Of a stretch of 52,591 nt of DNA, positions 11,786 to 52,591 are shown piece after piece. The stretch spans positions 1 through 52,591 of the forward strand of contig JAPPHT010000080.1 of NCBI GenBank assembly GCA_028874795.1. Reading direction: 5' to 3'. The position numbers and the translations under genes were made by a program. How positions within the stretch are numbered: position 1 is the first letter of the stretch; each line of letters starts with the position of its first letter. The stretch comes from Chloroflexota bacterium (lineage in GTDB: Bacteria > Chloroflexota > Dehalococcoidia > Lucifugimonadales > Australimonadaceae). Below the pieces are notes generated by a model, which made no database searches, had not been told where the DNA came from, and saw nothing but the letters and a program-made list of their open reading frames with translations.

Positions 11786-11830
11786 GCATCTGTTCCCTTC
11801 ACCCGGTGACGTCGGCGTCGATAGCGGTGG

Positions 11831-11862
11831 CTTGTCACGCAGGTTACTTGTCGCGCAGGTGA
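11831..11862 (+). repeat. Two tandem 16-bp units upstream of bicupin copy 2
   Basis: CTTGTCACGCAGGTTA (11831-11846) is directly repeated as CTTGTCGCGCAGGTGA (11847-11862). The second unit supplies the AGGTGA ribosome site of the next gene. It could be a small regulatory duplication or slippage. Confidence 0.6.
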
Positions 11863-11866
11863 GCCA

Positions 11867-13012: not shown

Positions 13013-13070
13013 TTCGCCGTCTCCTTTCACGCAGGGGCGTCTGGGAGAGAACGACGCTTTTCCGCCGCGT

Positions 13071-13100
13071 TTGACACTCCACGCCGGGCGACACTATAGT
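13071..13100 (+). promoter_or_regulatory. Promoter of bicupin copy 3
   Basis: TTGACA (13071-13076), an 18-base spacer and TATAGT (13095-13100) sit about 105 bases before copy 3. This is one of the best promoter matches in the window. It can drive copy 3 and the transporter genes behind it independently of copies 1 and 2. Confidence 0.72.
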
Positions 13101-13204
13101 TCGCCCAATGTTGTACGGAGAGTCCCGCCCGGCTCTCCGGTCCACCGGCGCTTCCCGTGCAACCAACCCGGCATCGAGGACAAGACCCGTAACGCGGGGA
13201 AACG

Positions 13205-35307: not shown

Positions 35308-36277
35308 TCACCTGAACAGAACCACAGCCTTGCTCGAATTGAAGATGTACGTCTCTGAATATGCAAGTACCTCGGGCACCTGGCCTTCGGTTGCGCCCGC
35401 AAGACAGACCCAGTTGAGCAACTCGTTCTGTCCCGATTCGCGGATCTGCTTGGGGTCCAAGTCCCGCCAGAGTCCCTGCCTGCCTTCACGAAGCTCTTCG
35501 TACCGCTGCCGGTCCTCCTCGACGTCGGGATACATGTAGTCGTTCTTCTTCGTCAGCGAAGCATGCGACCAGCTGGACGAGCCGATAAGGACAACCCTCC
35601 AGGGGCTCTCCTCCACGATGCGCCGGACCGCCTTCCCCACGTCGAAACATCGCCAGGGGCTTGGCGACGGGGGAGGTGTGTTCGGCATGGAAGGGGACGA
35701 TGGGATAGGGGAACCCCACCCGGTCGGCGTCGAGATAGTCCACTGTGCGCAGGAACGCGTGGCCCAGGCGCTTGGCATGGAGCAGCCCCCAGGCGCTCGG
35801 GATGTCGAACCCCCCGGCGATCAACTCCCGGACGATGTGGTTCGCCGCCTGACGATGACCGGTTATCACCCGCTCGTGGTCCGGCCCCTCGTTCCAGATG
35901 TTCGGCAGGCGCATGCCGCCGGCACATACCAACTGGTCCAGCCCGAAGACGCAGAACGGCGGAAGCAGGTCCTCCTTGAAGTTCTCGTACTGGTCGTCCC
36001 CCCAGATGAGTACGAAGTCCGGAGCGAACTCGTCTATCGCAGCACGGGCCGCACGGAAGCCATCCAGGAGTGTCGTGCGATGCCTGTTCGCCGCGGCTGC
36101 TCCCTCATCGTCCGCCCACTCCTCGCGCATCGGGGCTGGCCAGTTTGCCCGGTCCTTCCAGCGGTCGGGTGTTCGAGGGTCTGCGAGATTCCGCCGGAAG
36201 TACACGTCGGCCATGGTCTCATCGGTCATTCCGACGTGCGGACCGTGCGTACAACCGATCGCCAGCACTGCTCCCAT
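35308..36277 (-). pseudogene. LigB-type extradiol dioxygenase gene broken by an internal deletion and frameshift
   Basis: The 5' part (from ATG 36277) reads MGAVLAIGCTHGPH with H11, GDDQYENF, and on to FPYPIVPFHAEH. The 3' part continues in another frame as PSPSPWRCFDVGKAVRR, GSSSWSHASLT, GQNELLNW and FNSSKAVVLF. The switch lies near 35670-35690. Compared with the 8271 paralog, about 47 bases are missing there, covering the NCYGSR strand. The rest is well preserved and the promoter is strong. It is therefore either a recent loss or an assembly error; intact, it would be about 335-350 residues. Confidence 0.8.
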
Positions 36278-36607
36278 GCTCCACACCCTTCCTTCGGCGG
36301 ACGCTCCCCTCCTGCGGCTGACACGACAGCATCCGAACGACTGTCCCTTATGGCACTTATAGCGGATGGGTGTGCCTCGGTCAAGTTGAGTGACTTCCGA
36401 GGTGAGAATCGTTGGCGCCTGTCCGACGTTTGTCGCTAATCGCAAATGAGGGCGATGTTCATCGCACTTCTCGGAAGCGATACTCCCAGCGTTGCTGCGG
36501 CCATGTCGGTCCCCATCCCTGTTCCGGATTCCGGGGGCGCTACTGTCCGGAATAACGTTAGACTCCGCAACGAGGTAGCCGTGCACTTACTCGCGAGGAC
36601 TGCGTTC
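36278..36607. other. Divergent regulatory gap, no gene
   Basis: 330 bases between module B (minus) and the TRAP permease (plus). It contains the minus-strand promoter at 36356-36384. On the plus strand a TAGACT -10-like hexamer near 36560 has no convincing -35. No credible small gene is visible. Confidence 0.6.
36356..36384 (-). promoter_or_regulatory. Promoter of module B
   Basis: On the minus strand TTGACC (36384-36379), a 17-base spacer and TATAAG (36361-36356) form a near-consensus promoter about 80 bases ahead of the LigB pseudogene. It is the obvious start of the module B transcript. Confidence 0.75.
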
Positions 36608-38664: not shown

Positions 38665-38693
38665 TTGACATGTATCCGGCGCAGTCCTAGACT
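38665..38693 (+). promoter_or_regulatory. Promoter of module C
   Basis: TTGACA (38665-38670), a 17-base spacer and TAGACT (38688-38693) lie about 78 bases before the first amidohydrolase of module C. I found no comparably strong promoter downstream, so it may drive some 13 kb of genes. Confidence 0.72.
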
Positions 38694-38771
38694 CGCCTCG
38701 AAGCAGCCACAGACAGAAGGGCTGCAGGTGTCGGTCGACAAGGAACGTGCATCGCAAGGAGGGCGCAACCC

Positions 38772-39824
38772 ATGTTCGACGCCGATGGCCACATCTTCGA
38801 GAAGAGTGCCGAGATCTTCGAGCACCTGGACGGGCCCTACAAGGGCCGTACCAACCTCATGCGAAGTCCCTTCTTCCCCGCAGGCGACGACTGGAACCGC
38901 ACCGCGCTCGCCGTGGCCGGGGACTATAAGGAGGGCTCCAACACCAAGCGGGGAGAGGAAGGCGCTCCGGACCAGTGGATCGAGGTGCTTGATGCCCTCA
39001 ACCTGGAGGGGACCGTCCTCTACCCCACTGCGGGCATGACGCTGGGCATCATCAAGGACAAGCCGTGGGCAACCACGCTGGCGCGCGCATACAACAACTG
39101 GCTCGACCAGAAGTTCCTGCAGGCAAGCCCGCGACTCCGGGGCATGGCCCTGATCCCGACCGTCAGCCCGGATGACGCCGCCGAAGAGATGCGGCGGGTT
39201 GCGGCCGAGATACCCGGCATGGCCGGGTTCTTCATCACCGCCGGAGTGCAGCGGCCACTCGGCGACCCCTTCTATTACCCCATCTACGAGACCGCACAGG
39301 AACTCGACATCATGCTCGCGATCCACGCGGGCGGCCCCGGACACCGGCTGGACATGATGGACCGCGCCATCATGGCGAGGGCGCTTGGCCACCCCACCAG
39401 CCAGATGAACCAGCTCACCCACATGATGTTCAGCGGTGTATTCGACAGGTTCCCCGAGGTGCGCTTCTCCTTCATGGAAGCGGGCATCGCGTGGGCGATC
39501 TTCACCATGGAACGCATGGAGGAGGCGTACGACCAGTGGTCCTACGAAGTGCCGGAGTTGACCCGCCGCCCCGCTGAGCATATGACCGGAGGCCAGCTCT
39601 ACTTCCACTGCGAGACCGACGAGGGGATCCTCCCCTATGCGGTGAGCGTGCTCGGCGACCGGCAACTGCTGTACGCCTCGGACTACCCGCACATCGCCCC
39701 GGGTGAAGTGACCGCGAGGCTGCACGAGATGCGCGAGCGCTCGGACCTTTCGGAGGAGACTAAGTCGCAGATCCTGGGGGAGAACGCGAAGCGCCTTTAC
39801 AAGCTTGGCGACTCCCTCACGTAA
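38772..39824 (+). CDS. Amidohydrolase (ACMSD-like family), module C copy 1
   Basis: 350 residues. The N-terminal metal motif FDADGH, the mid-protein LAIHAGG histidine and LYASDYPH with the catalytic Asp are all present. FSFMEAGIAWAIF is shared with the two paralogs at 44394 and 45455. The first residues are already the metal motif, so this start (ATG after AGGAGGGCGCAACCC) is secure. Probable chemistry is metal-dependent decarboxylation or C-C hydrolysis of a carboxylated ring or ring-fission product. It is the first gene of the module, 48 bases ahead of the binding-protein gene. Confidence 0.86.
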   Translation: MFDADGHIFEKSAEIFEHLDGPYKGRTNLMRSPFFPAGDDWNRTALAVAGDYKEGSNTKRGEEGAPDQWIEVLDALNLEGTVLYPTAGMTLGIIKDKPWATTLARAYNNWLDQKFLQASPRLRGMALIPTVSPDDAAEEMRRVAAEIPGMAGFFITAGVQRPLGDPFYYPIYETAQELDIMLAIHAGGPGHRLDMMDRAIMARALGHPTSQMNQLTHMMFSGVFDRFPEVRFSFMEAGIAWAIFTMERMEEAYDQWSYEVPELTRRPAEHMTGGQLYFHCETDEGILPYAVSVLGDRQLLYASDYPHIAPGEVTARLHEMRERSDLSEETKSQILGENAKRLYKLGDSLT

Positions 39825-39872
39825 ACCACCCCTGGCCTCAGGCCGAAACAATCCATACACGAGGTAAGGACC

Positions 39873-41114
39873 ATGCCCCGCTACACCAACAGATGGAAAG
39901 CACTCCTCTTCAGCACCTTGGTGATGATGCTGGTCGCAGGGGCGGTCGCGTGTGGCAGCGAGGACCCCACGCCGACCAGCCCACCGCCGCCGACTGCCAC
40001 GCCGGTGCCCGTCGCGGCGCCAACGGCAACTCCGGTACCCGCCGCCCCCAGCGAACCGGACCCCACGCCGACACCAGCCCCGCCGGCATGGGAGGCTGAG
40101 TGGGAACAGACCGTGGCCGCTGCCGAGGCGGAGGGCCAGGTGGTCGTGATCGTTCCGCCCTCCGAGGCACGACAGGAATCGGTAGAGCTGTTCCGTGAGA
40201 AGTTCCCGAACATCGAGCTCATCACGGAGCCCGGACACATCCGCAACTTCGGCCAGTCGGTGGCCCAGGAGCAGGATGCAGGCATCTACCAGTACGACGT
40301 CTGCTACGGCTGCGTGGGCACCACCGTGTACAACCAGTGGCTGCCGGTTGGAAGAGTCGTCAACATCCGCGAACAGCTCATCCTTCCTGAGGTTGTCGAC
40401 GAGAGCAAGTGGCTGGGAGGATTTGAACTCGCGTACGCCGACACGAACAACACGCACATGTTCGGGTTCGTCGCTAACCGCGGCCAGCCAACGCTTTATG
40501 TGGACCGCTCGGTCATCCCCGAGTCCGAGCTCCCGGCAGCCGTCAGCCTCGCGGAGCTGGCCAACCCGAAGTGGAAGGGCATGCTCAGCTGGAACGACCC
40601 GAGCCGGCCAGGCGGGGGAAGCACGGTGCCTGCTGCCATGATCGTCTTCGATCTGGAAGCGGAGCTCCGCTCCATCTTCCCGGGCCAGGAGTACCTGATC
40701 ACGGCGAGCAACCAGGAGACGACGGAGTTCCTGGTGCGCGGCAAGACGCCGATGGCGATCGGCATCGACAGGGTCTCGCTCATCGAGTTCCAGCAGCAGG
40801 GCGTGGGCGAGCAGATCGTCGGCGTGCCGTTCACCGAATACGTCCAGGAGTCCTACGGCTTCGGCGTCCTGACGATCCTCAACAACGCTCCCAACCCCAA
40901 CGCGGCCAGAGTGTTCGCCAACTGGTGGCTCACCCAGGAGGCGCAGGCGAACCACACGGAGATCACGCTGGACCAGAGCCGGCGGGTTGACGTCGAGGGG
41001 TCGGCGATATCCAGCGAACTGGCCCCCGGTCAGGAAGTGCTGAACATGCAACTCGAAGTGAACAACGTTCACCGGACAAAGTCGCAGGCGCTGATCGCGG
41101 AGTTGCTCAACTAG
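39873..41114 (+). CDS. ABC transporter substrate-binding lipoprotein (AfuA-type fold)
   Basis: 413 residues. The signal peptide ends in a lipobox-like AVAC with C27, then a Thr/Pro linker, then the binding domain from EGQVVVIVPPSEARQESVELF. Landmarks are ELANPKWKGML, FLVRGKTPMAIGI and NPNAARVFANWWLTQEAQ. A YDVCYGCVGTT segment with two Cys is peculiar to this copy. The cognate permease is presumably the one at 48643 in the same gene run, 7.5 kb further on, separated by the catabolic enzymes. A strong hairpin follows the stop. Confidence 0.87.
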   Translation: MPRYTNRWKALLFSTLVMMLVAGAVACGSEDPTPTSPPPPTATPVPVAAPTATPVPAAPSEPDPTPTPAPPAWEAEWEQTVAAAEAEGQVVVIVPPSEARQESVELFREKFPNIELITEPGHIRNFGQSVAQEQDAGIYQYDVCYGCVGTTVYNQWLPVGRVVNIREQLILPEVVDESKWLGGFELAYADTNNTHMFGFVANRGQPTLYVDRSVIPESELPAAVSLAELANPKWKGMLSWNDPSRPGGGSTVPAAMIVFDLEAELRSIFPGQEYLITASNQETTEFLVRGKTPMAIGIDRVSLIEFQQQGVGEQIVGVPFTEYVQESYGFGVLTILNNAPNPNAARVFANWWLTQEAQANHTEITLDQSRRVDVEGSAISSELAPGQEVLNMQLEVNNVHRTKSQALIAELLN

Positions 41115-41155
41115 ACAAGAGGGGTGCCTCGACGGCATGGACAGGCCAGCGTATG

Positions 41156-41195
41156 CGCGAGCCCGGGAGGGTCTCGAGACCCCCTTGGGCTCGCG
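41156..41195 (+). terminator. Intercistronic hairpin after the binding-protein gene
   Basis: An outer stem CGCGAGCCC / GGGCTCGCG (41156-41164, 41187-41195) encloses an inner palindrome GGGTCTCGAGACCC (41169-41182). No T-tract follows. It is the third binding-protein gene in this window with such an element directly downstream. Confidence 0.6.
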
Positions 41196-41232
41196 TGGCT
41201 CTCGCTGAGGGTTACGGGATAGGAGAACGTCT

Positions 41233-42501
41233 ATGACAGTCTATGCAGGGAGCGCCTATGCAAGCCTGGTCATGGGCGATCAGGTGGACAGCGGCGTCTA
41301 CACCTCGCCCGAGGTCTTCGAACAGGAGATGCGCCGCATCTTCGGCCGTACCTGGATCTTCATCGGGCACGCCAGCGAAGTCCCGAACCCCGGGGACTTC
41401 AAGACCGTCCAGATCGGACAGTGGCCGCTGCTCATGACACGCCATTCAGACGGCCTCGTCCGCGTGCTGTTCAACGTATGCAGGCACCGCGGCTCGAAGG
41501 TCTGCTACGACGCCTTCGGCAACACGAACTCGTTCATGTGCATGTACCACGGCTGGACCTACGATACGGCGGGCGCCCTGAACGCGGTCCCCTTGCTCGA
41601 CCACATGAACGACCTCGACATGAGCTCGCACGGGCTGGTGAAGGTCGCCCGGGTCGAGACGCACAGGGACTTCGTGTTCGCAAGCCTGAGCCCGGAGGGA
41701 CCCACGCTTGCGGAGCACCTGGGAAGGGGCACCTACTACCTTGACGTGATGACGGACCGTGCGCCGGACCGCGAGATCCATGCAACCAGGCCCATCCGCT
41801 ACGAGTACGACGGAAACTGGAAGCTCCAGTTCGAGAACTACTGCGACAACTACCATCCGTGGTACCTGCACAACAGCGCCATCTCGGTGGGCGTGCAGAT
41901 GATGAAGGAGAAGTACGGCGACATCTTCGCCAGTTCGCGCCGGTCCGATGCCATCGCCGTCGAGCGCTCCTTCGGCGCGGCGCATTCCATGACGGACTTC
42001 GCGGGCACACGAGGCGCGATGTGGATGGACGCCTACTCCGACCCCGCCTTCCTGGAGGCGCTGGAGCGGCGCGACGGCCCGGAGCGCGCCAAGGAGCTGC
42101 TGGACCTGGACTGGCACATCATGATCTACCCGAACCTCCTGCTGCACACGCGGCTCAACCACTACCGGGTCATCAATCCCGTGGCCGTAGACCACACTGA
42201 GGTGACTGCGTACGCGTGCAAGCTGGGCGGGGCGTCGGACCAGGTGAACGACCGGTTGGTGAAGAACACCGCCCACCACGTCTCGGCACTGGGCGAGATC
42301 CAGGTGGACGACATGCAGGCGTTCAACTGGGTCCAGAAAGGGCTGACGTCCGGCGCCGTGGAGCGGGTCAACTTCAAGCTGCGAGGGGGCAACGAGCACT
42401 GGAACGACGACGGCGAGTATGAGTGGACGGGGGCAAGCGAAACTATGATGCGCTTCCAGTACCAGGAGTGGGCCCGGCTGATGTCGGACGAAGCGCGCTA
42501 A
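41233..42501 (+). CDS. Rieske ring-hydroxylating dioxygenase alpha subunit, module C copy 1
   Basis: 422 residues. Rieske ligands C83-x-H85 and C103-x2-H106 (CRHRGSK ... CMYHGWTYD). The mononuclear iron site E201-N-Y-C-D205-N-Y-H208-x4-H213 keeps classic naphthalene-dioxygenase-like spacing. The matching beta subunit starts 8 bases after the stop, forming an alpha-beta pair. AGGAGAACGTCT precedes the ATG. Two further alpha paralogs follow at 43035 and 46574. Electron donors are not encoded nearby. The substrate is likely a mono- or bicyclic aromatic acid or amine, undetermined. Confidence 0.93.
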   Translation: MTVYAGSAYASLVMGDQVDSGVYTSPEVFEQEMRRIFGRTWIFIGHASEVPNPGDFKTVQIGQWPLLMTRHSDGLVRVLFNVCRHRGSKVCYDAFGNTNSFMCMYHGWTYDTAGALNAVPLLDHMNDLDMSSHGLVKVARVETHRDFVFASLSPEGPTLAEHLGRGTYYLDVMTDRAPDREIHATRPIRYEYDGNWKLQFENYCDNYHPWYLHNSAISVGVQMMKEKYGDIFASSRRSDAIAVERSFGAAHSMTDFAGTRGAMWMDAYSDPAFLEALERRDGPERAKELLDLDWHIMIYPNLLLHTRLNHYRVINPVAVDHTEVTAYACKLGGASDQVNDRLVKNTAHHVSALGEIQVDDMQAFNWVQKGLTSGAVERVNFKLRGGNEHWNDDGEYEWTGASETMMRFQYQEWARLMSDEAR

Positions 42502-42509
42502 GGAACGTC

Positions 42510-42989
42510 ATGGTTGTCAGCCGCGATCTGCAGCACGAGGTGGAGCAGTTCCTCTTCCATGAGGCTGAACTCCTGGAGAACAGGCGGTTCGAAGAGTGGC
42601 TCGAGCTGCTGACCCGGGACGTCATCTACTGGGTTCCGAACATACGTGACGACAGCGACATCAGCGACGAGGCGATGATCTCCTACGAAGGCTACGACGA
42701 GCTCCGCGCCCGCACGGTCAGGCTCCGGCATCCGCTCAACCCGACGCAGAAGCCGCCGCCTCGCACACGTCACTTCATCACCAACGTCTCAGCCGAGGCA
42801 GGCGAAGGAGGCGAATTGCGCGTGCGGTGCAACCTGCTCGTATACGTGTCGAAAGACGGCAAGGTGGTCCACCATCCGGGAACGAGCGAGTACCGGCTCC
42901 GGGAGGAAGACGGCTCCTGGCGCATCGCTTCCAAGAAGGTGTACCTCATCACCAACGACCTGCCATTGACCCCGCTGCCTATCATGTAG
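42510..42989 (+). CDS. Rieske dioxygenase beta subunit, module C copy 1
   Basis: 159 residues with the NTF2-like fold: LQHEVEQFLFHEAELLENRRFEEWLELL at the start, RTRHFITNV in the middle, and WRIASKKVYLITNDLPLTPLPIM at the end. It starts with ATG behind AAGGAACGTC, 8 bases after the alpha stop. It shares its N-terminal helix nearly word for word with the 47876 beta subunit (LQHEVEQFL.HEA.LL), so the two arose by duplication of the alpha-beta pair. It may also serve the solitary alpha subunit that follows. Confidence 0.9.
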   Translation: MVVSRDLQHEVEQFLFHEAELLENRRFEEWLELLTRDVIYWVPNIRDDSDISDEAMISYEGYDELRARTVRLRHPLNPTQKPPPRTRHFITNVSAEAGEGGELRVRCNLLVYVSKDGKVVHHPGTSEYRLREEDGSWRIASKKVYLITNDLPLTPLPIM

Positions 42990-43034
42990 GTCAATCGCCT
43001 GCGCACCTGGAGCGCGGGAGGGAATCGAGGTTTT

Positions 43035-44324
43035 ATGACCACGGAAACCAGGCCAGGACTTCAGGACCTCGTCCAGGGGGACCGCGTACACCGGCGCGTC
43101 TACGTGGACCCGCAGGTCTTCGAGGAGGAGATACGTCGCATCTTCAAGCGCACCTGGCTGTTCGTCGGCCATGACAGTGAGGTGCCGCATCCCGGCGACT
43201 ACAAGACCGACACGCTCCTCGGACAACCCATCGTGATGACGCGCGACGGCAACGGAGCCGTGCACGTTCTGTTCAATCGCTGCCGGCATCGCGGTGCGAA
43301 GGTCTGCAACCAGCCCTACGGCAACTCGAGTTCGTTCAGCTGTCTCTACCACGGCTGGACCTACACCAACGCCGGGGACCTCATCGCGGTGCCTTCCCGA
43401 GAGTTGTGCCCCGCTGACTTCGATCCAGGCTCGTTCGGCCTGCTCCCATTGCCACGAGTGGAGAGCTACCGCGGGTTCGTGTTCGCGAGCTTCGCCGCTG
43501 ACGGTCCAACCCTCGAGGAGCACCTGGGACGCGTGACCGTCTACCTCGACCGCCTGATCGACCGCGCGCCCGATGGAGAGGTGGAGGTCGCCAAGCCGGT
43601 CATGTACGAGTACGGCGGCAACTGGAAGTTCCAGTTGGAGAACTTCGTAGACAACATCCACGCCCGGTTCACCCACGAAAGCGCCACTCATGCCCGGAGG
43701 ACGCTCGGGCCGTCGATGGGGCCGCGGTATGCTGACGCCCCCATCACCGACCCGGCGCGAACCCGACCGGGGAACCTGCGCCTGCTCGGCAGGGGCCACG
43801 TCGTCTGCGACTACGGCACGGAGCGCACCAAGATACCGTTCGGCGGATACGGCTTCTCCGGCCGCAATGCCGAGTACGTCCGCCTGCTGGAGGGGCGGCA
43901 TGGCCCGGAGCGCGGCCGGCTCCTGGCTGACGCTGACATCCACATCGTCATCTATCCCAACCTGCTCCTGCACACGCAGTACTCCCACTACAGGGTGCTG
44001 AAGCCCGTGGCGGTCGACCGGACCATCATGCAGGGTTACCCCATCAAGCTGAAGGGCGCACCGCCCGAGTTGAACGACGAGTTGGTCTCGGCGGCGTCCG
44101 ACCACGTCTCGGCCGCCGGTGCGGTCCAGATAGACGACATGGAAGCCTTCAGCCGCTGCCAGGAAGGCCTCGCGATCGAGTCCGACGAATGGGTGCTGTT
44201 CCCCTATGGCTTTGATGGCGAGCGCGTCGTTGACGAGAACGGCGAGGTCGTACTGCCTCAGGCGAGCGAGTTGGTCCAGTTGGCACAGCACGAAGCCTGG
44301 CGCGAGTTCATGGCCAACGAATGA
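43035..44324 (+). CDS. Rieske dioxygenase alpha subunit without its own beta subunit
   Basis: 429 residues. C83, H85, C103 and H106 bind the Rieske cluster; D206, H209 and H214 (ENFVDNIHARFTH) bind the catalytic iron. It is most similar to the 46574 protein, sharing DLIAVPSR.LCPA.FDPG and ENF/Y..DNIHARFTHE. Unlike the copies on either side, it is not followed by a beta gene but by two amidohydrolases. It may assemble with one of the two neighbouring beta subunits. It lies 45 bases after the first beta gene. Confidence 0.92.
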   Translation: MTTETRPGLQDLVQGDRVHRRVYVDPQVFEEEIRRIFKRTWLFVGHDSEVPHPGDYKTDTLLGQPIVMTRDGNGAVHVLFNRCRHRGAKVCNQPYGNSSSFSCLYHGWTYTNAGDLIAVPSRELCPADFDPGSFGLLPLPRVESYRGFVFASFAADGPTLEEHLGRVTVYLDRLIDRAPDGEVEVAKPVMYEYGGNWKFQLENFVDNIHARFTHESATHARRTLGPSMGPRYADAPITDPARTRPGNLRLLGRGHVVCDYGTERTKIPFGGYGFSGRNAEYVRLLEGRHGPERGRLLADADIHIVIYPNLLLHTQYSHYRVLKPVAVDRTIMQGYPIKLKGAPPELNDELVSAASDHVSAAGAVQIDDMEAFSRCQEGLAIESDEWVLFPYGFDGERVVDENGEVVLPQASELVQLAQHEAWREFMANE

Positions 44325-44393
44325 AGGGTTTTGATCGCACGATGACACACGCCCTCGGACTCAGCGGACCGGCGAAGCGAGGAGGTGAGTGAC

Positions 44394-45458
44394 TTGGCAC
44401 CAGCCTATGGAATGTTCGACGCAGACGGGCACATCTTCGAGAAAGAGGCCGAGATATTCGACTTCCTCGACGCACCCTTCGGCGACGTGGAGCGTCTCCG
44501 CGGCGCGCGCCTGTTCCCGTCCGGTGACGTATGGAACAAGACCGTCCTGGACGTCATCGACGGCGTCCATCACGAGAAGGTGCGGGATGTCGGCGCTGAG
44601 CAGTGGACCGACTTCCTCGACGAGATGGAACTGGACGGGACGGTGCTCTATCCGAGTTCGGCCACGCGTATCGGCTTCGTCAAGGAGATCGAGTTCGCCA
44701 TCCCCCTGGCGAAGGCGTACAACAGCTGGTTGCACGCCAGATACCTCTCGCAATCGCCGCGGCTGGGCGGCGTGGCCATCCTGCCGCTGCAGGACCCGGC
44801 CCTGGCCGCCGCGGAGCTGCGCAGGGCCGTGACCGAGCTCGGCTTCGTGGGGGCGCTCCTTCCGGGCGTCGGCCTCGACCGGCTGCACGGGGACCGGGTG
44901 TACGACCAGGTCTTCGAGACGGCGCAGGAGCTGGACGTGCCGCTCGTCGTACATGGCGGCGCAACGATGATGCCGGGCCTGCAGGAGTTCGACCGCGCCG
45001 TCAAGACGCGGACCCTCACCCACCCGTTCGCCCAGCTCATCCAGCTCACGGACATCATGTTCAACGGTGTGTTCGACCGTTTCCCCCGCTTGAGGATGGG
45101 CTTCATGGAAGCGGGCATCGGATGGGCGATCATGCTGTTAGACCGCATGGAGCGGTCGATCGCCATGGGCTGGTCCGTGGAAGCTCCCGACATGAAGCGG
45201 ACCCCCTACGAGACGCTGACGAGCGGGCAACTCTACTTCCACTGCGAGATGGACGAGGAGATCCTTCCATACGCCATCTCCCTCCTGGGCGATGAGAACC
45301 TGCTGTATGCCTCCGACTTCCCTCACCAGCCTCCCAGGTACTGCATGGAGGACATGCGCAAGCTCCAGGAACGTCCCGACCTTTCGGAGGAGACGAAGTC
45401 CCGCATCCTCGGCGAGAACGCGCGCCGGTTCTATCACCTGGAGGGAGAGGCATCGTGA
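44394..45458 (+). CDS. Amidohydrolase (ACMSD-like family), module C copy 2
   Basis: 354 residues from a TTG at 44394, preceded at 8 bases by AGGAGG (44380-44385). An in-frame GTG at 44385 overlaps that ribosome site and is unlikely. The metal motif FDADGH, VVHGGA and LYASDFPHQPP are present, as is the MGFMEAGIGWAI helix. It is close to the next gene, with which it overlaps by 4 bases (GTGA), so both are co-translated and may form a hetero-oligomer. The predicted reaction is decarboxylation or hydrolysis in the aromatic pathway. Confidence 0.86.
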   Translation: MAPAYGMFDADGHIFEKEAEIFDFLDAPFGDVERLRGARLFPSGDVWNKTVLDVIDGVHHEKVRDVGAEQWTDFLDEMELDGTVLYPSSATRIGFVKEIEFAIPLAKAYNSWLHARYLSQSPRLGGVAILPLQDPALAAAELRRAVTELGFVGALLPGVGLDRLHGDRVYDQVFETAQELDVPLVVHGGATMMPGLQEFDRAVKTRTLTHPFAQLIQLTDIMFNGVFDRFPRLRMGFMEAGIGWAIMLLDRMERSIAMGWSVEAPDMKRTPYETLTSGQLYFHCEMDEEILPYAISLLGDENLLYASDFPHQPPRYCMEDMRKLQERPDLSEETKSRILGENARRFYHLEGEAS

Positions 45459-46528
45459 CCGACTTCGCAAAGTTCGACGCCGACGGACACGTGTTCGAGC
45501 GGGACACGGAGATCTTCGAACACCTCGAGGCCCCGTTCTGCTACTACCCGGAACTCGCGGCCTCTGGACTGTTCCCGCGCAGCGACAACTGGAACCGGCA
45601 GGCGAGGAATATCTTCGACGGCCGGGCGAAGCGGGTCGCCCGCAGCGACAGCGACGGCACGCGCTTCGTGGAGCCCCAGCGTTGGATCGACTTCCTTGAC
45701 GAAGGCGATCTGGAGGGCGCCGTCCTCTACCCAACGGCAGGCCTCGCCATGGGCAAGGTCAAGGAGCCGGAGTGGGCTGTGCCGCTCGCCAGGGCCTACA
45801 ACAACTGGCTGAAAGCCCGGTTCCTCGACAGCTCTCCCCGGCTCAAGGGCGTCGCGGTCCTGCCCATGCAGGAGCCGGACGAAGCCGCCAAAGAGTTGCG
45901 CCGCGCGGTTGGCGAACTCGGCATGGTGGCCGCGGTGATCCCCGCCGTCGGGTTGAGGCGCTATCTGGGCGACACCAAGTACGACCCGGTGTACCAGACC
46001 GCACAGGAGCTGGACGTTCCCCTGGCCATACACGGCGGCGCGGCTGAGGGGATGGGTCTCGACGCTTTCGACAAACCGCTCAAGGCGCGAACGCTCTCGC
46101 ACCCCTTCGCCCAGCTGATCCAGCTCACGGACATGATGTACAGCGGCCTGTTCGACCGCTTCCCTGCGCTCCGCATCTCCTTCATGGAAGCCGGCATCGG
46201 CTGGCTGGTGTTTCTCCTGGACCGCATGGTTCGGTCGACGGACCTGGGCTGGATGCCGGAGGCCCCGCTGCTGAAGCGTTCGCCTCGTGAACATCTGACC
46301 AGCGGAAGGATCTTCTTCCACTGCGAGATGGATGAGAAAGTGCTGCCCTATGCAGTGGGCGTCATCGGAGACGATGCCATGCTCTACGCGTCGGACTTCC
46401 CGCACCAACCGCCCGGCGACTGCATAGCAGAACAGCGCGACTTCGTGGAACGCGCAGACCTCGCGGACGAGTCCAAGGCGAAGATCCTGGGAGCCAACGC
46501 CCGCCGTCTCTATAACCTGGCTGCGTGA
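45455..46528 (+). CDS. Amidohydrolase (ACMSD-like family), module C copy 3
   Basis: 357 residues starting at a GTG within the stop of copy 2. FDADGHVFE, LAIHGGA and LYASDFPHQPP mark the metal site, and ISFMEAGIGWLVF is shared with its paralogs. Its insert around NIFDGRAKRVARSDSDG differs from copy 2, suggesting a different substrate or subunit role. The gene ends 45 bases before the third alpha subunit. Product and substrate are unknown. Confidence 0.86.
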   Translation: MTDFAKFDADGHVFERDTEIFEHLEAPFCYYPELAASGLFPRSDNWNRQARNIFDGRAKRVARSDSDGTRFVEPQRWIDFLDEGDLEGAVLYPTAGLAMGKVKEPEWAVPLARAYNNWLKARFLDSSPRLKGVAVLPMQEPDEAAKELRRAVGELGMVAAVIPAVGLRRYLGDTKYDPVYQTAQELDVPLAIHGGAAEGMGLDAFDKPLKARTLSHPFAQLIQLTDMMYSGLFDRFPALRISFMEAGIGWLVFLLDRMVRSTDLGWMPEAPLLKRSPREHLTSGRIFFHCEMDEKVLPYAVGVIGDDAMLYASDFPHQPPGDCIAEQRDFVERADLADESKAKILGANARRLYNLAA

Positions 46529-46573
46529 TGGACGGGTGTTCATAGACACAGTGATGGACAAGGAGTAGAGGCG

Positions 46574-47845
46574 ATGACGACAGACGTACAGACCGGCATT
46601 CCGGACCTCATCGGGGAGAGCCGCGTTCACCGCTCCATCTACACCGACCCCGCGATCTTCGAACTGGAGATGAAGCGCATCTTCAGCCGCACGTGGGTGT
46701 TCATCGGCCATGAGAGCGAGGTCCCGCATGCGGGCGACTACAAGACCGACACGGTTGCCGGGCAACCCATCGTGATGACCCGCGACGAGGAAGGCGCCGT
46801 CCGCGTCCTGTTCAACCGCTGCAGGCACCGCGGCGCGAAGGTCTGCAACCTCCCCTACGGAAACTCCAGCACCTTCAGTTGCCTCTACCACGGGTGGACG
46901 TTCTCCAACAAGGGCGACCTCATCGCGGTGCCGTCCCGCCAGCTCTGTCCCGCCAACTTCGACCCCGGCAACTACCCGCTCGTCGCGCTGCCTCGCGTGG
47001 AGAGCTACCGCGGTTTCGTCTTCGGCAGCCTCAGCGCCGAGGGGACGCCGCTGGAGGAGCATCTGGGCCGCGCCACCCACTACCTGGACTGCCTCATCGA
47101 CCGCTCTCCCGAGGGCGAGATCCAGGTATGCAAGCCGGTCAAGTACTCCTACCCCGCCAACTGGAAACTGCAGATAGAGAACTACTCCGACAACATCCAT
47201 GCACGGTTCACGCATGAGGCAGCCTTCGCGGCAAGGCGGCCCATAGAGTCGGGAGCGGTGGAGCGCTACGGCGCCGGCTCGCAGCAACGGAGTGATCTCC
47301 GGATGGGGATCAACCGGGTCCTCAGCCACGGCGACTCCATGACCGACTATCGCGGAGACCGTCCCCAGATGGCCTTCGCGGGCCGCGACCCGGAGTACGT
47401 GAGCATCATGACGGAGAAGTACGGGGCCGAGCAGGCCCAGGCGATCGCCGACATGGACATCCACGTCATCATCTACCCGAACCTGCTCATGCATTCAGCG
47501 TACTGCCACTACCGCGTCATAAAGCCCGTCTCCGTGGACCAGACCGTTATCGTTGGCTACCCCTTCAAGCTGAAGGGTGCGCCGACAGAACTGAACGAGG
47601 CATTCGTACAGGCATCCTCGGAGCACATCTCGGCCTCCGGCGCCGTACAGGTGGACGACATGGAAGCGTTCGCTCGCGTGCAGGAAGGCCTCGCGGTCGA
47701 ACAGGATGAATGGGTCTCCTACGTCTACGGGATCGAGGAGCCCCAGGTCCCGAACGAGTACGGCGAGATCGAACTTGGAATGATGACGGAAGTGCCTGCC
47801 CTGCACCAGCACAGGGAGTGGCTTCGCCTGATGTCCCGGGACTGA
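46574..47845 (+). CDS. Rieske dioxygenase alpha subunit, module C copy 3
   Basis: 423 residues with an intact Rieske set (C83, H85, C103, H106) and iron triad (D206, H209, H214, from ENYSDNIHARFTH). It is the nearest relative of the 43035 alpha subunit, differing mainly in the substrate-pocket half (around residues 225-260). The beta subunit follows after 30 bases. The pair plus the preceding solitary alpha suggests a family tuned to several related substrates. Confidence 0.93.
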   Translation: MTTDVQTGIPDLIGESRVHRSIYTDPAIFELEMKRIFSRTWVFIGHESEVPHAGDYKTDTVAGQPIVMTRDEEGAVRVLFNRCRHRGAKVCNLPYGNSSTFSCLYHGWTFSNKGDLIAVPSRQLCPANFDPGNYPLVALPRVESYRGFVFGSLSAEGTPLEEHLGRATHYLDCLIDRSPEGEIQVCKPVKYSYPANWKLQIENYSDNIHARFTHEAAFAARRPIESGAVERYGAGSQQRSDLRMGINRVLSHGDSMTDYRGDRPQMAFAGRDPEYVSIMTEKYGAEQAQAIADMDIHVIIYPNLLMHSAYCHYRVIKPVSVDQTVIVGYPFKLKGAPTELNEAFVQASSEHISASGAVQVDDMEAFARVQEGLAVEQDEWVSYVYGIEEPQVPNEYGEIELGMMTEVPALHQHREWLRLMSRD

Positions 47846-47875
47846 CAAGCCCATCGAGCCACGGAGGACCGAACA

Positions 47876-48355
47876 GTGGGAGCCGGAGAGTCCCTGCAAC
47901 ATGAGGTCGAGCAGTTCCTCTACCACGAGGCCCGCTTGCTCGACAGGCGTCAGTTCAACGAGTGGTACGACCTGTTCGCGGAAGATTCCAGGTACTTCGT
48001 GCCCAGCATGAGCGCGGACAGCGACCCCACAGCCGACGCGTATATCGTGCACGAGAACCGGAAGGGGATACAGTACCGCGTCTCCCGGCTGCAGCATGGA
48101 TCGGCCCACACACAGATACCGCCAGCCCGGACCGCGCACATGATCACCAACGTTATCGTCGAGGAGCTTGGGGACGGCGAGGTTCAGACCAGCGCCGGAT
48201 ATGTGGTCTTCTGGTCACGCGGTGCGGTCGAGGCCAGGTACGCGGGCCTCTGTGAGCACCACCTGAGACGCGCGAACGGAGGCTGGGAGATTGTGGAGAA
48301 GAAGGTGAGCCTGCTCAACAACGACCAGCCCACGGACCGGCTGCCGTTACTCTGA
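47876..48355 (+). CDS. Rieske dioxygenase beta subunit, module C copy 2
   Basis: 159 residues, starting at GTG behind CGGAGGACCGAACA. LQHEVEQFLYHEARLLDRRQFNEWYDLF, RTAHMITNV and WEIVEKKVSLLNNDQPTDRLPLL are the family landmarks. It is a paralog of the 42510 beta subunit and pairs with the alpha subunit 30 bases upstream. No odd features. Confidence 0.9.
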   Translation: MGAGESLQHEVEQFLYHEARLLDRRQFNEWYDLFAEDSRYFVPSMSADSDPTADAYIVHENRKGIQYRVSRLQHGSAHTQIPPARTAHMITNVIVEELGDGEVQTSAGYVVFWSRGAVEARYAGLCEHHLRRANGGWEIVEKKVSLLNNDQPTDRLPLL

Positions 48356-48378
48356 CGACGACGAGACAGGAGGGTCCC

Positions 48379-48573
48379 ATGACCCAGGCAGTAGAGCTTT
48401 CGAGCGAGTTTGCGCGAGTGGTCGTTGAGCCTGACTACCAGGCGAACGGGCCGCGACTCAAGGTGCTCGATCTGGAGACCGGGCGCGAGAGGTACCTGGA
48501 CCCGATGGAACTCGCGACGCTAACGCTGCTCTCTCACAGGGACCTGGACCCGTTCATCAGGAACTCACGCTAG
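48379..48573 (+). CDS. Conserved-looking 64-residue protein of unknown function
   Basis: It starts 23 bases after the beta subunit behind a near-perfect ribosome site (ACAGGAGGGTCCC). The sequence is soluble and acidic, with a plausible small beta-alpha pattern: FARVVVEPDYQ, PRLKVLDLETGRERYLDPMELATLTLLS. It shows no metal-binding Cys/His set, so it is not a ferredoxin. I recognise no family. The strong translation signal and tight operon position argue it is real, perhaps an accessory or regulatory subunit for the Rieske enzymes or the permease. Confidence 0.65.
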   Translation: MTQAVELSSEFARVVVEPDYQANGPRLKVLDLETGRERYLDPMELATLTLLSHRDLDPFIRNSR

Positions 48574-48642
48574 GGGACGCGGCAGAGACTGGTCCACGAT
48601 GATGCGCCACATGCAAGGCATAACGAGCAGGGGACGACTCCA

Positions 48643-50367
48643 ATGAGGCTAGCCAAGGCCGGACAATTCCTACACCTCCCGTCCCTGTCGCTTCGGTTGA
48701 ACACCTTCATATTCACCGTCGTATTCATCCTGGTGGCTGTTGCCGTCCTCTATCCCATCCTCATCATGATCGTGCAGAGCTTCCAGTCCAGCCTGCCGGG
48801 GCAGCCCGTGGAGTGGAGCCTCGTAGGCTGGCGCAAGGCGTTAACCGAACCGGGCATGCTGGACTCGGTCGCGAACACGTTCAAGGTCTCCTTCGTCCGG
48901 CAGGGACTCGCCTTCCTGTTCGCCGTGCCCATCGCGTACGTCCTCGCCAGGACGAACCTGCCCGGCAAGCACTGGCTCGAGTTCCTGTTCTGGATCGCAC
49001 TCCTCATTCCCGGACTGGTGGTGACCATAGCCTGGATCCTGCTGCTGGACCCGGACTACGGCCTCGTCAATGAATGGGTCCAGCGATTGCCGTTCATCAA
49101 CGGCCCCATCTTCGACATCTACTCGTACTGGGGCATCATCCTCGTCTTCACCGCGTCAACGGGAGTCGCGTTCAAGGTCGTCCTGCTCACGCCTGCCTTC
49201 ATGAACATGGACGCCGCGCTGGAAGACGCCTCGCGCGTGAGCGGTGCAAGCAACATCGGCACGTTTGCGCGCATCTTCGTGCCGGTGATGGGCCCCTCCA
49301 TACTGGTGCTCATCCTGATGGCATTCATCCATTCGCTCCAGACCTTCGAGATAGAGCTCATCCTCGGCTCCCCCTCGAGGTTCTTCGTGTTCGGCACCAA
49401 GATCTTCGACCTGATACGGGACGACCCGCCGCAGTACCCGGCCGCGACCGCGATCGGCACGATGATCATGATCTCCGTGCTGCCGCTCATCGTTCTGTAC
49501 CGGTGGTACAGCGGCAGGCGGCGCTTCACGACAGTAGGCGGGCAGTACAGGTCCAACGTTGTCGAACTGCGCAGGTGGAAGTGGCCGATCTTCGCAGGGA
49601 TCCTCTCGCTCGGCCTCCTCGCAACCGTAGCTCCCCTGATCCTTCTCGTGGTCGGGAGCTTCATGAACATCTTCGGGTTCTTCAACATCCGGGACACGTG
49701 GACGCTCTCGAACTGGACGGACGTGCTCACCCGCGACGCCTTCATCACTTCGCTGAGAAACACGCTGATCGTCAGCGGCGGCGCCGCACTCGTGGCTTCC
49801 ATCGGCTTCTCCATCATCGCCTACATCACGGTGCGCACGCGGTTCTTCGCCCGTGAGCCGTTGAACCTGATGACCTGGATCCCCCTCGCCCTGCCAGGAA
49901 TCATCCTTGGGCTCGGGGTACTCGCGATGGTGCTGGGCAACCCGTTCCTTCGCCCGATCTACGGAACGCACTACATCCTCATCGGGATCGCCGCGGTGAG
50001 CGGAATGACGCTGAGCGTACAGATGCTCCAGGCCGTCATGCGCCAGATCAGCTTCGAGTTGGAGGAGGCCTCGGTGATCACCGGCGCCTCATGGCTCCAA
50101 ACGTACCGCTGGGTGGTCCTACCCATCATCACGCCCAGCATGATCGCCGTTGGCCTACTGGTGTTCATCCTCACCAGCCGGAACGTGTCGTCCATCGCGC
50201 TGCTCGGCACAAGGAACACGCGGCCGCTATCTCTCCTGCAGATGGACTACCTGCTGGACGGGAAGCTGGCCGAGGGAGCCGTGATCGGCACAGTGATGGT
50301 GGTCATCACGGTCGGCATCGCGATCGCAGCGCGCGCATTCGGGTTCCGCGTCGGGCTGAGATCGTAG
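48643..50367 (+). CDS. ABC transporter permease, two fused membrane domains
   Basis: 574 residues, two homologous membrane halves with EAA loops: EDASRVSGASNIGTFARIFVPVM near 187 and EEASVITGASWLQTYRWVVLPII near 473. It is paralogous to the permeases at 17115 and 28696. It follows the 64-residue protein by 69 bases and is the likely partner of the lipoprotein at 39873. Again no ATPase gene accompanies it. The RidA gene starts 26 bases downstream. Confidence 0.9.
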   Translation: MRLAKAGQFLHLPSLSLRLNTFIFTVVFILVAVAVLYPILIMIVQSFQSSLPGQPVEWSLVGWRKALTEPGMLDSVANTFKVSFVRQGLAFLFAVPIAYVLARTNLPGKHWLEFLFWIALLIPGLVVTIAWILLLDPDYGLVNEWVQRLPFINGPIFDIYSYWGIILVFTASTGVAFKVVLLTPAFMNMDAALEDASRVSGASNIGTFARIFVPVMGPSILVLILMAFIHSLQTFEIELILGSPSRFFVFGTKIFDLIRDDPPQYPAATAIGTMIMISVLPLIVLYRWYSGRRRFTTVGGQYRSNVVELRRWKWPIFAGILSLGLLATVAPLILLVVGSFMNIFGFFNIRDTWTLSNWTDVLTRDAFITSLRNTLIVSGGAALVASIGFSIIAYITVRTRFFAREPLNLMTWIPLALPGIILGLGVLAMVLGNPFLRPIYGTHYILIGIAAVSGMTLSVQMLQAVMRQISFELEEASVITGASWLQTYRWVVLPIITPSMIAVGLLVFILTSRNVSSIALLGTRNTRPLSLLQMDYLLDGKLAEGAVIGTVMVVITVGIAIAARAFGFRVGLRS

Positions 50368-50393
50368 TTCGGTTGCAGCATAAGGAGGAAACG

Positions 50394-50804
50394 ATGGGCA
50401 AGGTAAGGGAGATCATCCGCCCCAAGCCTGGAGGCGCCAGTCACGGCACGGGAATGGTTCCGGGGGTTAAGGCGGGAGGCCTGCTCTTTTTCTCCGCCGT
50501 ACGCGGCAACGGCCCCCGGGGAGAAGGACCGAGTCGCATGAGCGATGACACCCGGGAACAGGCGGAGCAGGCTTTCACGAACCTGCGCCTCATGCTCGAA
50601 GGCGCCGGTGCCACACTGGACCACGTCACCAAGGTAACGGTCTTCTTCCAGGATCTGAGAGACCGGCCGGCCTTCCACGAAGTGTGGATGAAGACGTTCC
50701 CGGAGGACCCACCAGCACGTTCAGCCATGCAAGTGGCGAATGCGAGTGCGTCGCCGGACGGCAACGCACGTTTCGTGATGGACGTTATCGCGGTCGCTCC
50801 GTAG
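50394..50804 (+). CDS. RidA-family protein
   Basis: 136 residues from the ATG behind AAGGAGGAAACG; the reading frame is open further upstream but only within the permease gene. AGGLLFFSAVRGNG, the EQAEQAFTNLRLMLEGAGATLDHVTKVTVF helix and PARSAMQV with the substrate-binding Arg are visible. The family acts as an enamine/imine deaminase, and in aminophenol-type pathways as 2-aminomuconate deaminase. It lies directly ahead of a LigB homolog, mirroring the LigB-RidA pair at 20.5-21.9 kb. Confidence 0.88.
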   Translation: MGKVREIIRPKPGGASHGTGMVPGVKAGGLLFFSAVRGNGPRGEGPSRMSDDTREQAEQAFTNLRLMLEGAGATLDHVTKVTVFFQDLRDRPAFHEVWMKTFPEDPPARSAMQVANASASPDGNARFVMDVIAVAP

Positions 50805-50862
50805 GGAGCCACGCAACGAGGTAGACCGGCTGCGATCAGGCAAGACGAGAGGAGAGCGGCAA

Positions 50863-51804
50863 ATGGGCAAAATCGTCCTCGGCATGGCTTCGTCTCACGC
50901 CTACACGTTCGAGGACCCGGCGGACTGGGACGCGCGGCGTGTTCGAACACAGACCAACTACAAGAACCGCTACGGCACGATGCCAGCAGACGTGCCGCAG
51001 GTCGCTCTGGAGGACCCGCAGGAGAACCAGGTCCGATTCGGCAGCATTCGCAATGGGCTCGAACACCTTCGTGACCACCTGAAAGCGCTCAGGCCGGATG
51101 TGTTAATCATGATCGGCGACGACCAGGACGAGAACTTCCGCGAGGACAACCTGCCCCAGTTCGCCATCTACACCGGAGGCGAGTTCATCCTCTCAGACCG
51201 TGCATCGAAGCGTGAAGTGACGTACCAGTGCGACACCGAACTCGCGGGTCAGATTCTCGAAGGATGCATCGATCGTGATTTCGACCTGGCGTCGTCCAAC
51301 CGGATGCCGGGCGGTTCGCTCACCTCGCACGCCCACACACAGCCACTCGTCTTCCTGGACATCGAGGAGGAGATGGCGGTTATCCCGGTCTTCGTGAACG
51401 CCATCCACATCCCTGCCCCCTCGCCTTCGCGTTGCTACGCGCTCGGCCGGGCCATCGGCGAGGTCATCGCGTTGGTGGGGGACAATAAGCGAGTGGCGTT
51501 GTACGCATCGGGAGGCCTGTCTCATTTCTCAGCGGGTTATCCCTGGCCACACTACGACGGTCCGCACACAGTCGGCAGCATCGCAGTTGACTATGACCGC
51601 GGCCTCGTCGACCTGATGAAAAAGGGCAGCAACCACCGGTTCGCGGAGTTGACGCAGAAGGACCTCATCGACAACGGCGAGATCGAATTACGCCAGTGGA
51701 TCGTCCTACTAGGCGCGCTGGGTGACCAGACCCCGCATCACTTTGCCTACGAGCCCTTCTTCAGAGGCGTGATGGGAATGGCTGTCAGCTGCTGGGAGCC
51801 CTAG
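50863..51804 (+). CDS. LigB-type extradiol dioxygenase homolog, short form
   Basis: 313 residues, closest in length to true LigB. H12 (GMASSHAYTF), GDDQDENF in place of the NDH ligand motif, FVNAIHIPAPSPSRCYALG, ASGGLSHFSAG with the catalytic His, and GEIELRQW with the Glu ligand are present. It is the last gene of module C, 58 bases after RidA. Its stop overlaps, tail to tail, the stop of the minus-strand Rieske gene through the 4 bases CTAG (51801-51804). It presumably cleaves the ring hydroxylated by the module's Rieske enzymes. Confidence 0.82.
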   Translation: MGKIVLGMASSHAYTFEDPADWDARRVRTQTNYKNRYGTMPADVPQVALEDPQENQVRFGSIRNGLEHLRDHLKALRPDVLIMIGDDQDENFREDNLPQFAIYTGGEFILSDRASKREVTYQCDTELAGQILEGCIDRDFDLASSNRMPGGSLTSHAHTQPLVFLDIEEEMAVIPVFVNAIHIPAPSPSRCYALGRAIGEVIALVGDNKRVALYASGGLSHFSAGYPWPHYDGPHTVGSIAVDYDRGLVDLMKKGSNHRFAELTQKDLIDNGEIELRQWIVLLGALGDQTPHHFAYEPFFRGVMGMAVSCWEP

Positions 51805-52591
51805 CCACTCTCCTCGCCAGCCTGGGTTTCCTCCGCCATCAGTTCGCGCCAGTAGCGATAGAACTGCCGCTGGTTCACCTCTGTGATGTGGGGGCCGAGC
51901 AGGCCGGGCAGGCCAGCTACGTCCCATTCCTCGCTGCCGGGATAGCTCTTCTCGTAACCGAGGCTCATGGTGTAGTCGAACGGCACCTTCCGGGCTCGGG
52001 GACTACGCACCATCTCAGCGATGCGCTCGAAGTTCTCTCCGTCATCCATGCCCACCAGACCTGCACCAGCCTGCCCCTGCATGAGCGCCGCGATAGCGGT
52101 CTCCTTGACGATCTTCGGTGCGTCCTTCTCCACGGCACCCCACTGCCAGAGGTTGGTCTGGTGCGGGCCACGCGGGTGCCAGACCAGTAGGCCTATCGCC
52201 TCGAGCGCGCTGGAGATACCGATGACGGAGAAGTTAGGGAACATGTTGCCCCGCACGAAACTGTAGGCATCCTCCTTCACCGCCTGCACCCGCTCACGAA
52301 GCAACTCGTACCGGTAACGGACCCACTCCACCGCTTCCGCACCCAACGACTCAGCAGCATACAGGTCGTTCTCGAAGGTGTGCCGCCCCACGCGGAAACT
52401 GCCCAGACCATGTGGCGCGCCGCGAAGGTAGCCTGCGGTCACCTCGTAAGTGGGGTCATCAGGGCTGCGGCGCCGGAGGCGTGCTCGACGACCGGTGCCG
52501 CCGCCATTGGCGGCCTGCGCTTCCATCTGGTACAGCTTGATGACTGATGCATGCGTCGATGCGAAGTGGTAGTGGTCCCCCTGAAAGTTCT
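51801..52591 (-). CDS. Rieske dioxygenase alpha subunit, C-terminal part (N-terminus beyond window)
   Basis: The frame is open to the right edge, giving about 262 residues of the catalytic domain. Close to the edge it reads NFQGDHYHFASTH, the iron-binding D-x2-H-x4-H motif, so the Rieske domain lies outside the window. Downstream are GNMFPNFSVIGISSALEAIGLLVWHPRGPHQTNLWQW and a C-terminal ITEVNQRQFYRYWRELM, typical of alpha3beta3 oxygenases. An internal ATG at 52526 should not be taken as the start. It converges on module C with a 4-base overlap. Confidence 0.88.
   Translation of the reverse strand, partial: NFQGDHYHFASTHASVIKLYQMEAQAANGGGTGRRARLRRRSPDDPTYEVTAGYLRGAPHGLGSFRVGRHTFENDLYAAESLGAEAVEWVRYRYELLRERVQAVKEDAYSFVRGNMFPNFSVIGISSALEAIGLLVWHPRGPHQTNLWQWGAVEKDAPKIVKETAIAALMQGQAGAGLVGMDDGENFERIAEMVRSPRARKVPFDYTMSLGYEKSYPGSEEWDVAGLPGLLGPHITEVNQRQFYRYWRELMAEETQAGEESG

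Follow-up and report, generated by a model that had tools for sequence, protein, structure and literature searches.

A 13-gene run of Rieske oxygenase, amidohydrolase, import, and LigB-family genes in a Chloroflexota draft genome

The stretch of DNA analyzed here, referred to as the window, comprises 52,591 nucleotides of a Chloroflexota bacterium (GenBank assembly GCA_028874795.1, contig JAPPHT010000080.1) and is the entire contig C10 of a 3.33-Mb draft genome that is 97% complete. Shortly before the contig ends at 52591, it carries a run of 13 plus-strand genes (38772-51804) encoding, in this order, an amidohydrolase, a binding lipoprotein (solute-binding protein, SBP), a ring-hydroxylating oxygenase (RHO) alpha-beta pair (alpha1-beta1), a further alpha subunit (alpha2), two more amidohydrolases, a second alpha-beta pair (alpha3-beta3), a 64-residue protein (p64), a fused ATP-binding cassette (ABC) permease, a RidA-family protein, and a LigB-family protein (Table 1). 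Intergenic gaps range from -4 to 118 bases (successively 48, 118, 8, 45, 60, -4, 45, 30, 23, 69, 26, and 58), and a Shine-Dalgarno-like sequence is present at most gene starts. Pfam supported three Amidohydro_2 proteins, three Rieske alphas, two betas, the two-domain permease, RidA, and LigB. The first-pass annotation of this DNA had described twelve tightly spaced genes behind one strong promoter. Each enzyme family that it named was confirmed by Pfam and the tight same-strand spacing is real, but the genes number 13. As for the promoter, a TTGACA-17-TAGACT sequence is indeed present; however, chance alone would give 1.8 matches of this grade in the region and two were counted, which deprives it of value as evidence for a promoter.

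Table 1. Features of the gene run and its immediate surroundings, in window coordinates.
Feature	Position	Strand	Basis or remark
Promoter-like TTGACA-17-TAGACT, 10/12	38665..38693	+	No more than chance expectation for region
amd1, Amidohydro_2 (DxH type)	38772..39824	+	Pfam; sister to Chloroflexi Dino_bin42 (L084) amidohydrolase
Solute-binding lipoprotein (SBP)	39873..41114	+	Lipobox-like VACGS; 28-34% to SBPs beside related permeases; no Pfam hit
Hairpin, SBP/RHO alpha1 gap	41156..41195	+	118-base gap folds at -57 kcal/mol, z -2.45
RHO alpha1 (Rieske + catalytic domain)	41233..42501	+	Pfam; Rieske motif and DxxHx4H intact
RHO beta1	42510..42989	+	Pfam; start re-set to ATG 42510 by beta3 comparison
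RHO alpha2, without own beta	43035..44324	+	Pfam; 59% to alpha3
amd2, Amidohydro_2	44385..45458	+	Pfam
amd3, Amidohydro_2	45455..46528	+	Pfam; 58% to amd2
RHO alpha3	46574..47845	+	Pfam
RHO beta3	47876..48355	+	Pfam
p64, 64-aa protein	48379..48573	+	Family adjoining RHO alpha-beta genes in several phyla
Fused (two-domain) ABC permease	48643..50367	+	Pfam; nearest model PhnU2
RidA-family enamine/imine deaminase	50394..50804	+	Pfam
LigB-family class III extradiol dioxygenase	50863..51804	+	Pfam; Gln88 at Fe-ligand His61 position
Convergent RHO alpha, C-terminal part, cut by contig end, outside run	51801..52589	-	Pfam

The three alpha subunits and the three amidohydrolases share one pattern of descent. 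In the alpha tree, alpha1 grouped with the alpha subunit of Chloroflexi Dino_bin42 (90/87) and alpha2 with alpha3 (100/99), and these four sequences make up a single clade (100/98). The amidohydrolase tree has amd1 beside the Dino_bin42 amidohydrolase (0.98) and amd2 beside amd3 (0.96), likewise within one clade (0.99). Since two unrelated families show the same duplication history, their products appear to act on linked substrates, and the matched trees constitute good evidence, the best from this locus, for a coupling of oxygenase and amidohydrolase. They predict that amd1 is paired with alpha1-beta1, and amd2 and amd3 with alpha2 and alpha3-beta3, and thus tell which amidohydrolase lineage should go with which oxygenase lineage.

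Both the CxH...CxxH cluster motif and the D-x2-H-x4-H iron site are intact in all three alphas. The run encodes no ferredoxin or reductase partner; many genuine RHOs borrow their electron-transfer partners, so missing partners are no bar to membership of this family. The nearest solved alphas were 9o71 and 7yls (E ~1e-72), to which the similarity is distant and which are probably dioxygenases of the indole-acetate type (the accession was not found in PMC10374108). In all three amidohydrolases the metal motif reads D14-x-H16 in place of HxH, and alignment of amd2 to gamma-resorcylate decarboxylase placed a Phe where that enzyme has the catalytic His of its HMGE motif. Nearest to amd2 among solved proteins were Amidohydrolase 2 entries, PtmU3, and the 5-carboxyvanillate and resorcylate decarboxylases (E ~1e-18 for the decarboxylases), ACMSD being a more distant relative in the PDB (E 1e-14); the match to 4-oxalomesaconate hydratase had an E value of 2e-9.

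When the order of the genes was followed into other genomes, the full 13-gene order was not found elsewhere, while parts of it recurred; the conservation that the first-pass annotation had made the test of its proposal therefore holds for sub-blocks and fails for the whole. The LigB of the run, used as a query against genome contigs, retrieved no relative, and a Rieske alignment was used for the locus search instead. Chloroflexi Dino_bin42 (L084) carries amidohydrolase-alpha-beta with identities of 54, 49, and 45%; a Nitriliruptorales locus (L091) has amidohydrolase-alpha-beta-p64 in the same order as amd3-alpha3-beta3-p64; and in G018, a genome of the same taxonomic order as this one, alpha-beta-p64 is followed by an amidohydrolase. 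A marine Acidimicrobiaceae locus (L109) reads alpha-beta-p64-BphC-like extradiol-SBP-permease-ATPase-hydrolase-alcohol dehydrogenase-IclR. Like the run, it combines alpha-beta-p64 with a downstream SBP and fused permease (28-33% identity), here separated by a single inserted extradiol gene; unlike the run, its extradiol enzyme is of type I (BphC-like), it has its own ATPase, hydrolase, alcohol dehydrogenase, and IclR regulator, and no amidohydrolase or LigB was seen in it.

The two components of an ABC importer encoded in the run are the SBP and the two-domain permease. The SBP had no Pfam match and was called from its paralogs and from a weak PDB match (E 0.014): it is 34% identical to an SBP on contig C20, which adjoins a permease 45% identical to that of the run, and 28% identical to the SBP of the marine Acidimicrobiaceae locus. 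The genome holds 14 permeases of this fused type, and a Rieske domain is found no more than 5 kb away from 11 of them, against a chance expectation of at most 21% (p 7e-6; LigB positions in this proximity analysis were the 17 listed among 31 matches). ATPases with a TOBE_2 domain number six genome-wide and lie within 8 kb of only four of the 14 fused permeases. A small set of ATPases therefore likely serves many of the import modules, with the caveat that contig ends and ATPases lacking TOBE_2 could affect this count. Gene spacing, the grouping in marine Acidimicrobiaceae, and the proximity of 11 of the 14 permeases to Rieske genes all support the earlier proposal that transport and catabolism are coded as one unit. 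The accompanying description of import genes bracketing the enzymes was loose: the SBP gene is second and the permease gene eleventh, but an amidohydrolase gene precedes them, RidA and LigB follow, and there is no ATPase. As the SBP is encoded beside the enzymes, its ligand should be the oxygenase substrate, which makes this protein a direct handle on what the oxygenases of the run act upon.

The LigB-family protein matched PF02900 (E 3e-30), in agreement with a LigB fold. Its structure model, of moderate quality (pLDDT 70), was nearest to the gallate dioxygenase DesB (Z 30.7, 262 residues aligned, 2.6 Å) and then to LigAB (Z 29.0), compared with Z ~24.6 for 2-aminophenol dioxygenases. It shares with DesB and LigAB this fold (Z 29-31) and the equivalents of His12, His195, and Glu242; it differs from them in having no LigA partner and, by alignment, Gln88 of a GDDQxExF motif in the position of the iron ligand His61. 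Residues 1-24 of the LigB reference in one alignment were entered by hand; the match of His61 to Gln88 rests independently on another alignment. Among 53 related reading frames, this position was occupied by Gln in 33 and by His in 12. The GDDQ form dominates the LigB paralogs of the genome, the nearest of which is 44% identical to the LigB of the run, and the motif also occurs in proteins of Mycolicibacterium rufum (41% identical), Novosphingobium, Bradyrhizobium, and Rhodococcus. Because GDDQ-type proteins are widespread and often stand beside catabolic genes, their distribution argues for a subfamily that is active rather than decaying. In the literature collection searched, no publication on a Gln-liganded LigB was found. 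On its plasmid, M. rufum has a meta-cleavage cluster (L198) in which an RHO alpha-beta pair accompanies the GDDQ LigB, as in our run; in contrast, its alphas are only ~31% identical, no amidohydrolase, SBP, or permease is nearby, and it contains a Gfo/Idh dehydrogenase, a class II aldolase, hydrolases, DmpG, and acetaldehyde dehydrogenase of its own. On a plasmid of Bradyrhizobium CB82 (L226/L231), genes for RraA, a hypothetical protein, RidA, an amidohydrolase, and a GDDQ-type LigB are adjacent, an independent RidA-amidohydrolase-LigB set.

Two further LigB-family genes of the window are of note. A frameshift divides a GDDQYENF-type gene at 35308-36586 (-) between two reading frames that overlap, either as a pseudogene or through an assembly error, and the reading frame opposite it (35618-36439, +), which had no family match, is probably spurious. 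In the paralog at 20877-21926 (-), the equivalents of His12 and His61 are replaced by Asp and Ser, and with both lost it is probably not a normal dioxygenase. The RidA of the run was closer to canonical RidA enamine/imine deaminases (E 4e-13) than to the 2-aminomuconate deaminase AmnD (E 4e-5); its nearest NCBIfam entry was a Rid subfamily model, with a score below the model cut-off.

No Pfam or NCBIfam match was obtained for p64. A profile derived from it found relatives beside RHO genes in Armatimonadota, ANGP1, Nitriliruptorales, Actinophytocola, Acidimicrobiaceae, and genomes G018 and G007, those of Armatimonadota and ANGP1 being tandem repeats. The profile set consisted of loci fetched with an RHO query and is biased toward RHO neighbors, whereas a plasmid search by tblastn was free of that bias; it placed p64 directly after beta in Rhodococcus p52, Pseudonocardia, and Mycobacterium avium, and three genes before alpha in Rhodococcus DK17 and GD02, all five being annotated as 'hypothetical protein'. 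Membership in a conserved family indicates that the 64-residue gene is real. Within this genome, p64 occurrence was checked in the loci that were read. The AF2 model (pLDDT 86) consists of four strands plus two helices, and Foldseek returned no match to it at E below 0.1. Resemblance to PUR-alpha/PC4-like proteins (Z ~6, 61 residues aligned, 3.7 Å) was too weak to name a function. We raise only tentatively, as a possibility that we would not bet on, the combined proposal that one branch of the alpha-beta Rieske enzymes, in at least three phyla, has p64 as its conserved third component and that the GDDQ proteins form a large, widespread class III extradiol subfamily in which His has given way to Gln, perhaps with a different ring chemistry. 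Both the Gln-type LigB and p64 are testable with single purified proteins.

Genome-wide, Amidohydro_2 gave 88 matches, Rieske 85, LigB 31, and RHO beta 12; beyond the window, the regions around hits were examined. No FAD_binding_6 reductase domain was found in this genome with its 85 Rieske matches, other reductase types not having been searched, and the reductase is thus probably of another type. The rpoB sequence is 65.6% identical to that of a named Chloroflexi genome, the identity level found within that genome's own order, yet values to HR32, ANGP1, and Armatimonadota are likewise ~65%. No 16S gene was found in this metagenome-assembled genome. Because the rpoB placement is loose, SAR202 is an inferred label here. 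Available portions of the SAR202 accounts report, for group VII, up to 62 RHO alphas with 1-3 betas per genome, the largest genome being a 3.22-Mb sponge symbiont (Saw et al., PMC6946804), and, for SAR202-VII-2, 25 ring-cleaving dioxygenases with no complete reference pathway, as well as metal-dependent hydrolases clustered with ring-modifying oxygenases in SAR202-VII (Colatriano et al., PMC6123686). Our genome fits this published picture of an expansion in aromatic degradation (PMC6123686, PMC6946804): Rieske alpha paralogs run into the tens, betas are few, ring-cleaving dioxygenases are numerous, metal-dependent hydrolases cluster with the ring-modifying oxygenases, no reference pathway is complete, and the size is ~3 Mb; the same portions do not describe this gene order, the import genes, p64, or a GDDQ LigB. 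The iad auxin-degradation operon of Variovorax resembles the run in combining an ABC solute-binding protein with a Rieske alpha-beta dioxygenase, but it includes its own FMN-type reductase, IadC, and the available part of its description mentions no LigB, RidA, amidohydrolase triplet, or p64 (PMC10374108). The claim that such an arrangement had not been described must accordingly be narrowed: insofar as these texts cover the matter, hydrolase-oxygenase clusters (PMC6123686) and an SBP-Rieske operon (PMC10374108) were already reported. Rieske/hydrolase clusters are known from SAR202-like Chloroflexota, and what is new here is the full order. The run is one among many such runs in the genome, built by copying oxygenase and hydrolase gene pairs. 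A role in oxidizing recalcitrant dissolved organic matter has been proposed for marine Chloroflexota of this kind, and the substrates proposed for their many Rieske enzymes are guesses.

We consider it on balance probable that the run is one catabolic transcription unit through which an aromatic compound, probably an acid, is both taken up and oxidized in a coupled manner. We infer co-transcription of the 13 genes, and the reactions might proceed as follows. The lipoprotein SBP and the fused permease would bring in the substrate with the help of an ATPase from another locus. Alpha1-beta1, alpha3-beta3, and alpha2, the last either without a beta or with one borrowed from another pair, would hydroxylate the substrate or strip its substituents with a reductase from elsewhere. 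The three matching metal-dependent amidohydrolases, one lineage for each oxygenase lineage, would hydrolyze, hydrate, or decarboxylate products of the oxygenases or of ring cleavage. The Gln-type LigB would open the ring, RidA would clear enamine/imine by-products, and duplication of the amidohydrolase-alpha(-beta) module, about twice, could have widened the range to related substrates.

Several observations weigh against this proposal. Among the 13 genes there is none for an ATPase, ferredoxin, reductase, diol dehydrogenase, or regulator. In the LigB, the family's 2-His-1-carboxylate site (His12, His61, and Glu242) is incomplete, one of its two His iron ligands being absent. In five congeneric genomes, this LigB has no close counterpart (best 39%, over partial length), and alpha3 likewise lacks one at E 1e-60, which indicates that the run was not long conserved as one piece. 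The inverted repeat that is strongest among those between genes, a hairpin whose arms measure 21 nt, lies in the gap between SBP and alpha1; the transcript level may change there, so that the transcript may be split or graded after the SBP; operons with binding-protein genes are often graded at that point.

A cleavage of the protocatechuate/gallate 4,5-type, in which the Rieske enzymes remove a methyl group from a benzoate or hydroxylate it, ring opening falls to LigB, and an amidohydrolase works like 4-oxalomesaconate hydratase, like a PDC hydrolase, or as a benzoate decarboxylase, would agree with the nearness of the LigB model to DesB and LigAB, with the decarboxylase and hydratase matches of amd2, and with an amidohydrolase that adjoins LigA-LigB in Azospirillum. 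We nevertheless regard it as unlikely, given that no LigA, dehydrogenase, aldolase, or tautomerase is encoded in the run, that Gln stands at His61 of LigB, and that the amidohydrolase metal motif is DxH. Somewhat less likely still is a pathway for an indole- or pyridine-like N-heteroaromatic, in which RidA would remove an enamine/imine arising from the collapsing nitrogen ring or from a ring-cleavage product. The presence of RidA within the run, the adjacent genes on the Bradyrhizobium plasmid, the probable indole-acetate type of the nearest solved alphas, the pairing of an SBP with a Rieske dioxygenase in iad as far as described (PMC10374108), and the annotation of PydA, a LigB-family protein, as opening 3,4-dihydroxypyridine (PMC7356986) point in this direction; however, the run's alphas resemble 9o71 and 7yls only distantly, RidA proteins serve as scavengers in general housekeeping, and the run encodes no nitrogen-specific enzyme, for instance an amidase.

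The degradation of 2-aminophenol or 3-hydroxyanthranilate favored by the first-pass annotation would assign LigB as an aminophenol dioxygenase, RidA as an aminomuconate deaminase, and an amidohydrolase as an ACMSD-type decarboxylase. The three superfamilies do co-occur here, and ACMSD and 2-aminomuconate deaminase are distant relatives of amd2 and RidA, respectively. This assignment is nonetheless very improbable: the amidohydrolases carry DxH where ACMSD has its HxH hallmark, a Phe of amd2 aligns to the HMGE-type catalytic His of gamma-resorcylate decarboxylase, RidA resembles canonical members most, LigB is closer to the gallate and protocatechuate enzymes, and a Rieske step is foreign to that pathway. 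Nor were its downstream enzymes found in the 13 genes, to which the search was confined: a semialdehyde dehydrogenase, a hydratase, and an aldolase are all missing. A nitrogenous substrate as such stays conceivable in view of the neighboring RidA, amidohydrolase, and GDDQ-type LigB genes of Bradyrhizobium. A chance assembly of neighbors without a common function is conceivable in a genome so dense in amidohydrolase and Rieske matches, the more so as the order is not conserved in congeners, but the matched duplication of alphas and amidohydrolases, the overlapping and near-overlapping genes, and the recurrence of sub-blocks in other phyla make it improbable.

Elsewhere in the window, three tandem cupin proteins of 381-385 amino acids (10640-14362, +) are encoded upstream of a second SBP, an M24 peptidase, a fused permease, and a Rieske protein, and Sortilin/BNR-repeat proteins are encoded inside this catabolic contig at 22078-23220 (+) and 26112-27287 (-).

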